In this document: piece after piece, positions 16,547 to 18,409 of the stretch
Position numbering within the stretch: the stretch's first letter is position 1
How the letters are laid out: every line of letters begins with the position of its first letter
DNA from: Oscillospiraceae bacterium
Lineage (GTDB): Bacteria > Bacillota > Clostridia > Oscillospirales > Acutalibacteraceae
Assembly: GCA_902792985.1 (NCBI GenBank)
Contig: CADBBT010000033.1
Coordinates: forward strand, 1-35,833
DNA: 35,833 bases
Direction of reading: 5' to 3'
Program-made: the position numbers and the translations under genes
The notes under the pieces: generated by a model
Database searches by the model: none
What the model saw: the letters and a program-made list of their open reading frames with translations, nothing else
What the model was told of the DNA's origin: nothing

Positions 16547-16594
16547 AAAAAAAGAAGAGGCAAAGGTGCCGTATTACCGGAAGACACCTTTGCC
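16547..16594 (-). terminator. leader terminator (attenuator) upstream of asnB
   Basis: On the minus strand GGCAAAGGTG (complement of 16585-16594) pairs perfectly with CACCTTTGCC (complement of 16559-16568) and is followed by TCTTC and seven T residues. It lies between the asnB promoter and the asnB ribosome site, so it must be read through for expression. The 5' arm carries the box shared with gdhA and glnA leaders. Confidence 0.85.
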
Positions 16595-16616
16595 CTGTAT
16601 GAACACTGCTGCGGAT

Positions 16617-16645
16617 AATATACGGTTTGTGTGAATGATCGCCAA
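16617..16645 (-). promoter_or_regulatory. asnB promoter
   Basis: Minus strand TTGGCG (complement of 16640-16645), 17-base spacer, TATATT (complement of 16617-16622). Transcription would start near 16610, about 15 bases before the attenuator stem. Confidence 0.6.
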
Positions 16646-16722
16646 ATCATCAAACAAGAGAGGAGAAAGCATAAAGATCCGTGCAGTGCGTTTTAAATAT
16701 TGAATAGAAACGGGTTGTCTGA

Positions 16723-18057
16723 TCAGACAATGCCCTGTGCGTTCATCGCATCCATGACTTTTTCAAAGCCCGCAATGTTTGCGCCGACCACATAATCGCC
16801 GTCGAAGCCGTATTTCTTCGCCGCATCGTCGATGTTGTGATAAAGATGAACCATGATCTCCTTGAGACGGGCGTCCACTTCGTCAAATGTCCAATGCAGA
16901 CGTTCGCTGTTTTGGCTCATTTCGAGTGCGGAGGTCGCAACGCCGCCGGCGTTTGCCGCTTTTGCAGGCAGGAAAAGGATGCCCTGTTTGCGCAGATAAT
17001 CGGTCGCGTCCTCTGTCGTCGGCATGTTTGCGCCTTCGGACACAGCAGTCACACCGTTTGCAACAAGCTGCTTCGCATCTTCAATGTGCAGTTCATTCTG
17101 TGTGGCGCAGGGTAGCGCAATGTCGCACTTGACGCTCCATACGCCTCTGCCTTCGTGATACTGTGCGTTGGGACGCTGGGCGGCATATTCTGTCAGACGC
17201 GCACGCTTGACTTCTTTGACGTCCTTGAGGGTCGCAACATCGATGCCGTCCGGATCATAGATCCAGCCCGTGGAATCAGAGCAGGTGACGACCTTGGCGC
17301 CGAGCTGCTGTGCTTTCTGAATGGCATAGGTCGCAACATTGCCCGCGCCGGAAACGCAGATCGTTTTGCCGGCGATGTCGATACCGTGGCAGCGCAGCAT
17401 TTCCTGTGTGATATACAGCAGACCGTAGCCTGTTGCCTCGGTGCGCGCAAGCGAACCGCCGAACGGCAGACCTTTGCCGGTCAAAACGCCGGTGAAGGTG
17501 TTGCGCAGACGTTTATACTGACCGAACATATAACCGATCTCACGTGCACCTGTGCCGATATCGCCGGCGGGCACGTCGGTGTCCTCGCCGATATGCTTGG
17601 CAAGCTCCGTCATAAAGCTCTGGCAAAACGCCATGATCTCACGGTCGCTCTTGCCTTTGGGGTCAAAATCACTGCCGCCCTTGCCGCCGCCGATCGGAAG
17701 ACCGGTCAGCGAGTTTTTGAAGATCTGTTCAAAACCGAGAAATTTGATGATGCCGAGATTGACGCTCGGATGCAGACGCAGACCGCCCTTGTAGGGGCCG
17801 ATGGCGCTGTTGAACTGCACGCGGTATCCTGTGTTGACATGGACCTGACCCTGGTCGTCGATCCACGGCACGCGGAATTTGATTTGACGCTCCGGGTTGA
17901 CCAAACGCTCCAACAGCGCGTTGCGGCGCATCTGCGCTTCGTTTTTCGCAACAACGGGTTCCAGCGATTGCAGAACCTCTTTGACCGCCTGATGGAACTC
18001 CGGCTCGTTCGGGTTTTCTTTGATGACCTGGTTGATGACTTCGTTGACGTATGACAT
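16723..18057 (-). CDS. gdhA: NADP-type glutamate dehydrogenase
   Basis: 444 residues, the normal length of hexameric bacterial glutamate dehydrogenase, which fixes ammonium onto 2-oxoglutarate. Visible: [20 protein letters not shown], the catalytic-lysine segment [37 protein letters not shown], and the nucleotide-binding [23 protein letters not shown] stands before the ATG at 18057; an upstream in-frame extension runs through the leader hairpin and was rejected. Its own promoter and two tandem leader terminators precede it, divergent from glnA. The stop codon lies inside a short palindrome (TTGTCTGATCAGACAA) that may help end transcription. Confidence 0.95.
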
Positions 18058-18079
18058 GATGAGACCTCCTTGAATGATG

Positions 18080-18118
18080 AAAAAGACGTCGTGCGGCAGC
18101 CGCCGCAAAGACGTCTTT
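18080..18118 (-). terminator. second leader terminator upstream of gdhA
   Basis: On the minus strand AAAGACGTC pairs with GACGTCTTT around an inner stem TGCGGC/GCCGCA, followed by TTTTT (complement of 18080-18084). The 5' arm is also part of a perfect 16-base palindrome GCAAAGACGTCTTTGC (18105-18120), which offers a competing fold. It lies just before the gdhA ribosome site. Confidence 0.8.
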
Positions 18119-18141
18119 GCCTTTGTGATATAAAATTGAAG

Positions 18142-18177
18142 AAAAAAGGGGCTTTAAGCGCTGTGCTCAAAGACCCC
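18142..18177 (-). terminator. first leader terminator upstream of gdhA
   Basis: On the minus strand GGGG-T-CTTTGAGC pairs with GCTTAAAG-CCCC and is followed by six T residues (complement of 18142-18147). The apical loop is ACAGC, with A first and G fourth as in ANTAR-bound loops, though five rather than six bases long. It begins about ten bases after the predicted start of transcription. Confidence 0.8.
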
Positions 18178-18194
18178 GTTGCCTTCTGTTTCGC

Positions 18195-18224
18195 ATTCTA
18201 CACCCAAATCCGCGCATTTGTCAA
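18195..18224 (-). promoter_or_regulatory. gdhA promoter
   Basis: Minus strand TTGACA (complement of 18219-18224), 18-base spacer, TAGAAT (complement of 18195-18200). Start expected near 18188, leaving a leader of about 130 bases with two terminators. Confidence 0.75.
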
Positions 18225-18319
18225 CAAGAATCTTTCATTTTTTTCAGATTTCTGCAAATGGACCAAAAACCTTAAGAAAACGGGTGTCTGATTTGTGAAA
18301 TGTGTTTTTTCACTTCAAC

Positions 18320-18348
18320 TTGACGCAGACAATAAAAATGCGTATAAT
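18320..18348 (+). promoter_or_regulatory. glnA promoter
   Basis: TTGACG (18320-18325), a 17-base spacer and a consensus TATAAT (18343-18348). Transcription should begin near 18355, placing the GCAAAG box at the very 5' end of the RNA. Confidence 0.85.
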
Positions 18349-18359
18349 ACAATTAATGA

Positions 18360-18409
18360 GCAAAGGCGTTCATTTCGGTATTGGCAGTCTGCAACGAAAT
18401 GAACGCTTT
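18360..18409 (+). promoter_or_regulatory. glnA leader hairpin with the shared GCAAAG box
   Basis: GCGTTCATTTCG (18366-18377) pairs with CGAAATGAACGC (18395-18406), flanked by AAAG/CTTT, and CTTTCTTTATA follows. The T run is broken, so this is a weak terminator or an RNA-binding structure. It ends ten bases before the AGGAGG site. The 5' arm (GCAAAGGCGTT) matches the leader boxes of gdhA and asnB. Confidence 0.7.

Follow-up and report, generated by a model that had tools for sequence, protein, structure and literature searches.

Introduction

The closest described counterparts of the system reported here are antiterminators with an ANTAR domain. The eut leaders carry two hexaloop hairpins separated by linkers of 5-12 nucleotides (nt), and for EutV at eutP the identity of the first and fourth loop bases (A1 and G4) and of the closing pairs matters, C-G and then A-U being sequence-specific (PMC3369931); in dual elements of actinobacteria, linkers of 2-25 nt were accepted (PMC8164766). 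Walshe 2022 (PMC8934654) redefined the minimal ANTAR site as one hexaloop and requested work on single sites, held that antitermination needs contact with each hexaloop of a pair, and pointed to a possible single site in EutX as well as to mycobacterial RNAs departing from the dual motif. ANTAR-controlled nitrogen regulons have been predicted in Desulfotomaculum and Pelobacter (Ramesh 2012, PMC3369931). Here we describe the leaders of asnB, gdhA and glnA in a stretch of 35,833 nt from a gut bacterium of the Oscillospiraceae (contig CADBBT010000033.1; this whole stretch is the window), each of which carries small hexaloop hairpins overlapping a terminator, with an ANTAR gene directly behind glnA. 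We consider it very probable that these leaders are ANTAR-controlled transcription attenuators forming one nitrogen-assimilation regulon, at which, by analogy with published ANTAR work, the ANTAR protein would bind and prevent termination.

Results

The first-pass annotation of the window had noticed a near-identical box in a hairpin of each of the three leaders, and the box is indeed found there: GCAAAGGTGTC at 16593-16583 (minus strand) before asnB, GCAAAGACGTC at 18120-18110 (minus strand) before gdhA and GCAAAGGCGTT at 18360-18370 (plus strand) before glnA. We scanned both strands of the 35.8 kb for hairpins with an A1-x-x-G4 hexaloop of which the 3' half can instead pair downstream to form a T-tailed terminator. 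This gave four leader units and one weaker site (~1778, minus strand), with three matches altogether in eight Markov-shuffled windows. One unit lies before glnA and one before asnB, as had been proposed, while gdhA carries two in tandem, the first of which (~18186-18169) had been overlooked. The features of the three leaders are given below, where R1 is a covariance model built from 52 units (alignment A1).

18320..18348, plus strand: promoter-like site of glnA, TTGACG-17-TATAAT, consensus match 11/12
18355..18374, plus strand: glnA hexaloop hairpin, AATGAGC[AAAGGC]GTTCATT (scan; -5.2 kcal/mol)
18362..18413, plus strand: glnA leader terminator with T-rich tail, built in part from the hexaloop hairpin (its loop and 3' arm)
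18433..19644, plus strand: glnA, glutamine synthetase, 403 amino acids (aa), TTG start (TIGR00653, 344 bits, under the curated cut-off of 429; Pfam Gln-synt_C, 291 bits)
19677..20264, plus strand: ANTAR gene, 195 aa (PF03861, 63.5 bits), called nitR here
18195..18224, minus strand: promoter-like site of gdhA, TTGACA-18-TAGAAT, consensus match 11/12
18169..18186, minus strand: gdhA unit 1 hexaloop hairpin, GAAGGC[AACGGG]GTCTTT (scan; R1 43.8 bits)
18142..18177, minus strand: gdhA unit 1 terminator with T6 (fold and scan)
18106..18125, minus strand: gdhA unit 2 hexaloop hairpin, CAAAGGC[AAAGAC]GTCTTTG (scan; R1 34.6 bits)
18078..18118, minus strand: gdhA unit 2 terminator, its tail merely a short T run (fold and scan)
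16723..18057, minus strand: gdhA, NADP-specific glutamate dehydrogenase (NF006929, 760 bits)
16617..16645, minus strand: weak promoter-like site of asnB, TTGGCG-17-TATATT, consensus match 9/12
16581..16596, minus strand: asnB hexaloop hairpin, AGGGC[AAAGGT]GTCTT (scan; R1 32.8 bits)
16547..16595, minus strand: asnB leader terminator with T-rich tail (fold and scan)
14934..16517, minus strand: asnB, glutamine-hydrolysing asparagine synthase (NF006949, 615 bits)

The box forms the top of a small hairpin, namely its loop with the closing pairs, C[AxxGxx]G; closure is by C-G in 4/4 window hairpins although the scan required only A1 and G4. Since the 3' half of this hairpin doubles as the 5' arm of the terminator, the two structures are mutually exclusive. 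The leaders fold more stably than their own shuffles (z of -5.1 for asnB over 66 nt, -3.3 for gdhA unit 2 over 41 nt and -4.2 for glnA over 62 nt), and across the seven units of the genome the small hairpins come to only -1.6 to -6.1 kcal/mol and the whole-unit minimum-energy folds to -20 to -31 kcal/mol, so that termination is the expected default. The window units thus show both the hexaloop and the terminator overlap that are published for the dual-hexaloop ANTAR class. No Rfam match reached the gathering score in the window or in four loci, and at E<=5 the window gave three chance-level matches, none inside the three leaders. Two simpler descriptions of the element were discarded. As a bare sequence motif the box is too little enriched, the genome having 58 copies of GCAAAGRYGTY and 41 of its reversed control pattern; and the CGG that had been noted behind the box, while present in the window, is not general in relatives. 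The earlier reading of the box as the ANTAR recognition element survives in amended form, given its published A1, G4 and C-G features: the element is the loop plus closing pairs of an antiterminator-type hairpin.

The hairpin recurs in homologous leaders; a lack of conservation in box and stems, named beforehand as a refutation of the first-pass reading, was thus not observed. A protein similarity search supplied 80 glnA loci, in which tblastn located the genes; hexaloop hairpins, whatever their loop sequence, were then sought in the 200 nt upstream of each start, leaders not being chosen by motif. An AxxGxx hairpin preceded the type III glutamine synthetase gene (GSIII) in 27/27 cases (2.2 in shuffled sequence), glt1 in 24/25 (1.4), gdhA in 23/25 (1.6) and glnA in 37/80 (5.6); the internal genes nitR and glt2, which served as negatives, had it in 6/76 (3.8 shuffled) and 1/29 (2.0). 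Among the 148 unselected hairpins before GSIII, glt1, gdhA and glnA, 132 are closed by C-G, the next pair is G-U in 132 and A-U in seven, and the second loop base is A in 136. Of the 43 glnA leaders lacking a hairpin, 27 stand behind same-strand glt genes and five have less than 3.5 kb of sequence upstream. The 52 units of alignment A1 were picked from 139 listed because they pair and because C-G closes a loop of the form AA.G[AG]. in them. Among these units pairing reaches 96.5% in the small stem, where 32 cells are double-changed (compensatory) against 6.5 shuffled, and 87.5% in the terminator stem, where the figures are 69 and 20.4; selection by pairing biases these counts upward, and the invariant loop and closing pair of the alignment are partly by design.

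An unexpected aspect of these leaders is that they appear to work with one hexaloop. We surveyed 153 distinct leaders in 91 loci (one dropped before the upstream count, four before the promoter count; 26 of 211 distinct units had no matched gene and were left out of the counts). The loci came from glnA homology or from R1, and shares of downstream genes are therefore not genome-wide frequencies. A canonical dual-hexaloop element whose partner, upstream or in the terminator loop, is too degenerate for our test would fit the finding that two hexaloops are essential in eutP, and an AxxGxx hairpin does occur in the terminator loop of 13/152 leaders against 6.8 shuffled; this last candidate was set aside, being above the shuffles yet with no common sequence visible. 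Upstream, a second AxxGxx hairpin within 40 nt was found in 6/152 leaders against 4.3 shuffled, that is, at chance level, and one with a C-G closing pair in 0/152. A promoter-like site matching the consensus at 9/12 or better, with its -10 box ending at most 25 nt from the stem, is present in 130/149 leaders (null 10.8, standard deviation 4.3), and the gap from -10 box to stem is 6-10 nt in 99 of the 132 leaders having a site of at least 9/12 (a hand count on predicted promoters); the stem thus starts at about the predicted +1, which leaves an upstream partner no space. In the window the glnA hairpin starts ~7 nt past the -10 box, and many glnA leaders of relatives have the same hairpin. The 30 eutP/pduV-family loci taken as positive control contained three attenuators whose hexaloop is C-closed, and for two of these the partner was seen, from which it follows, within the limits of a small control, that the upstream test detects dual elements. 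We therefore regard a concealed dual element as improbable. Dual-hexaloop attenuators near eutP/pduV-family genes were seen in loci L257 and L269.

Where leaders do contain two units, what is repeated is the entire hairpin-terminator unit, 57-92 nt downstream. Such two-unit leaders account for 12/31 of gdhA, 18/38 of GSIII and 1/41 of glnA, together with one amt leader; a second hexaloop across a short linker, as at 5-12 nt in eut, was not found above chance level in the surveyed leaders. The tandem units also bear on a different explanation, in which the hairpin is no RNA element at all, but an inverted repeat at +1 serving as DNA operator for a nitrogen repressor, followed by ordinary leader terminators. 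Its position near the predicted start, within 25 nt of the -10 box in those 130/149 leaders, is typical of repressor sites. However, the loop is asymmetric, the G-U second pair in 132/148 unselected hairpins breaks the DNA palindrome, the 3' half of the hairpin keeps its complementarity to the downstream T-tailed arm, second tandem units have a promoter-like site (at least 9/12) in only 2/32 cases, and the motif goes together with a gene for an RNA-binding ANTAR protein. Taken together, these points make an operator very unlikely.

The gene behind glnA encodes an ANTAR protein, as had been stated, its PF03861 score standing well above the curated cut-off of 27.3 bits, and it is the single ANTAR gene detected in this genome (completeness 89%). 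Among the 80 glnA loci, nitR directly follows glnA in 78, at a median gap of ~42 nt, and in the remaining two the contig ends at most ~125 nt from glnA. In Clostridium, too, where nitR is known from C. saccharobutylicum, the ANTAR gene of the glnA-nitR pair lies directly behind glnA. The closest solved structures, by alignment to Protein Data Bank entries, are the mycobacterial antiterminator 1s8n (Rv1626) and AmiR. At the phospho-acceptor position the window protein has Asn59, and 77 of 78 relatives have Asn and one Cys; the acceptor Asp of a phosphorylated EutV-type receiver is thus lacking from the window protein. At the positions of EutV Lys149 and Tyr164 there are Lys and His in 77/77 aligning relatives (of 78), the EutV numbering involving a two-residue offset that is our own reading; the roles of residues of the Arg142, Lys149 and Tyr164 type are taken from PMC8934654.

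Motif and ANTAR genes occur together. At class level (291 genomes), R1 matched at E<=0.001 in 37 genomes and an ANTAR gene was found in 145, with both in 36 of the 37; at family level (120 genomes, E<=0.01), the figures are 33, 77 and 28 of 33, and all 20 family genomes with an R1 match below 1e-4 have ANTAR. These many-genome searches used stricter filters and scored only 49 candidates in each genome at family level and 20 at class level, which makes absence of the motif weak evidence. In a comparison of 45 genomes (gdhA in 40, 30 loci examined), gdhA leaders gave a scan match in 8/21 ANTAR-positive genomes and in 0/9 where ANTAR was not found. The attenuation could in principle be real and yet be worked by a small RNA, a metabolite or another protein, nitR being a mere neighbour, and one class-level genome (G162), which has units but no detected ANTAR gene, speaks for this. 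An incomplete assembly or another partner are candidate explanations for that genome. With no Rfam match at gathering score, with published ANTAR identity elements in the loop and with ANTAR in 36/37 motif genomes, we judge such a different factor highly unlikely. The units of G162 (L253, L254) are clear, and two of them lie near GSIII and asnB.

The regulon extends beyond the window. In its own genome R1 finds seven units in five leaders, namely the four of the window, with gdhA unit 1 as top match, and three on another contig (C53); all remaining matches score below 20 bits. On C53, tandem units at 4092-4142 and 4141-4191 precede GSIII (Pfam GSIII_N, 265 bits), amt/PII and purF, and a unit on the opposite strand, at 3931-3987, precedes the genes for a glutamate synthase (Glu_synthase, 465 bits) whose amidotransferase is on a separate gene, the archaeal-type arrangement. 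The genes behind the five leaders are for ammonium assimilation or glutamine-using. The earlier proposal of three genes co-controlled by termination is supported, although the regulon it named was incomplete. Between GSIII and purF on C53 lies a gene for a 600-aa protein in which an ammonium transporter is fused to a PII domain (L214, 6379-8181, plus strand).

In the window, asnB is followed closely by further genes:

9705..14933, minus strand: guaA, pyrG, dapF and a gene for LL-diaminopimelate aminotransferase, closely spaced after asnB (NCBIfam)

Judging from spacing, asnB and these four genes form a possible same-strand operon. One ANTAR-type leader heads this head-to-tail set (9705-16517, minus strand), in which 3/5 genes are glutamine amidotransferases. 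Membership of asnB, which had been claimed from the window leader, stands there and is not general. Among relatives, a unit lies 71 nt before the asnB start in L066 and ~300-420 nt away in L065 and L063, and in six others asnB lies 17-78 nt behind GSIII, whose leader it may share. Because its own-leader, GSIII-linked and T-box-like arrangements differ, we see ammonium assimilation as the core of the regulon and asnB as joining it in varied ways. In L116, L121 and L126, where the ANTAR hairpin is absent, the sequence upstream of asnB looks T-box-like by eye (AGGTGGCACCGCG), and asnB of the relatives is possibly one gene under two attenuation systems. L063 and L065 share a similar open frame of 54-55 codons (MKPATEQQK start) between the ANTAR unit and asnB. 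In L089, L090, L111, L044 and L136, units precede frames whose first residues, by eye, resemble purC, nadE, gatC and dapF, a hint that the regulon of some relatives covers glutamine use more broadly.

Discussion

Our results suggest the following course of events. RNA polymerase would start at the strong predicted promoter, and the initial ~20 nt of the transcript would fold into the small A1-x-x-G4 hexaloop hairpin with its C-G closing pair. Unless held, the 3' half of this hairpin would re-pair with downstream RNA into the far more stable terminator, and transcription would stop after ~50-60 nt. Under nitrogen shortage, the ANTAR protein from the glnA locus would bind the single hexaloop and hold the small hairpin, allowing read-through into glnA, into gdhA (two gates in series) and into asnB and, on C53, into glutamate synthase and GSIII-amt/PII-purF. 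That nitrogen limitation leads to read-through, rather than the reverse, we infer. As the receiver has no Asp to be phosphorylated and its gene stands behind glnA, a protein or ligand is the probable carrier of the signal, and glutamine synthetase itself may be that protein. A fuller version holds that the whole regulon runs on single-hexaloop antiterminators in the first ~20 nt, one ANTAR dimer on one hexaloop being enough, that the pseudo-receiver responds to a protein partner, be it glutamine synthetase or another, and not to phosphorylation, and that gdhA and GSIII gained a second gate through repetition of the whole unit; we offer it tentatively, at slightly below even chances.

Several observations weigh against ANTAR-controlled attenuation of one regulon as set out here. 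Within 200 nt, AxxGxx hairpins precede asnB in only 1/14 relatives (0.6 shuffled), guaA in 1/9 (0.8) and pyrG in 0/4 (0.4), and 11/43 hairpin-less glnA leaders fit neither the glt-upstream nor the short-upstream case, a different leader type or promoter arrangement being candidate explanations. In the own genome, R1 scores are weak for the window's glnA (22.6 bits, E 0.28), GSIII unit 2 (24.1 bits, E 0.13) and the glt1 unit (28.0 bits, E 0.019), the small stem of the last has four pairs only, and a stricter hexaloop scan called 0/3 of the C53 units. EutV at eutP required two hexaloops (PMC3369931), and the window protein has Ile at the position of EutV Arg142. As regards co-occurrence, the class-level overlap (hypergeometric 2e-11) is uncorrected for relatedness, G162 is an exception to it, and five family genomes without ANTAR have one R1 match each, at E 1.5e-4 or weaker. 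Of the 21 gdhA leaders of ANTAR-positive genomes, 13 have no scan match, although the hairpin can be seen by eye in two of these (L219 and L230), and relatedness is a confounder, since the gdhA set from genomes where ANTAR was not found lies farther from the window as well. The 11 glnA loci are L078, L088, L089, L090, L111, L123, L125, L130, L131, L134 and L139; the last (JAFYCE010000062.1) is titled Alphaproteobacteria, has a glnA 63% identical to that of the window and is possibly a mislabelled bin.

With some 150 natural leaders seemingly working with one hexaloop near +1, the single-site question becomes directly testable, and for many uncultured Clostridia of rumen and gut a coherent nitrogen regulon emerges whose signature is compact and searchable. 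A search limited to freely available journal articles, without their supplements, found no paper on single-hexaloop ANTAR attenuators besides PMC8934654 and none on an ANTAR regulon in Ruminococcus relatives; some overlap in species with the regulons of Ramesh 2012 (Table S2) is possible.

How, then, does the system compare with those already described? It resembles the EutV antiterminators of Enterococcus faecalis (eutP, eutG, eutS, eutA) in the A1/G4 hexaloop, the C-G closing pair and the U that adjoins it on the 3' side, and a terminator-exclusive hairpin with an ANTAR partner protein, here a predicted one. It differs from them in that the second pair is G-U, where eutP has A-U (G for A), in that eut has two hexaloops at 5-12 nt whereas here there is one, or a repeat of the whole unit 57-92 nt on, and in that the EutV receiver is phospho-accepting while the window protein has Asn at this site. 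The 1s8n protein likewise keeps Asp there. AmiR of Pseudomonas aeruginosa shares with the window protein His at the EutV Tyr164 position; AmiC controls it, at a single amidase operon, unlike the multi-operon case here. The regulons of Ramesh 2012 likewise place nitrogen genes of several operons, including those for glutamate and glutamine synthesis, under ANTAR control (PMC3369931), but they were found with a dual-hairpin model, whereas here the hairpins are single and give no Rfam gathering score. The sequence features of the minimal site of Walshe 2022, one A1/G4 hexaloop, are present here; contact with both hexaloops of a pair was held necessary for antitermination in that paper, in contrast to single hexaloops that here overlap terminators. 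An ANTAR-controlled nitrogen regulon is thus of a known kind in other bacteria, and the part for which the literature searched gave no description is its single-hexaloop build near the predicted +1.

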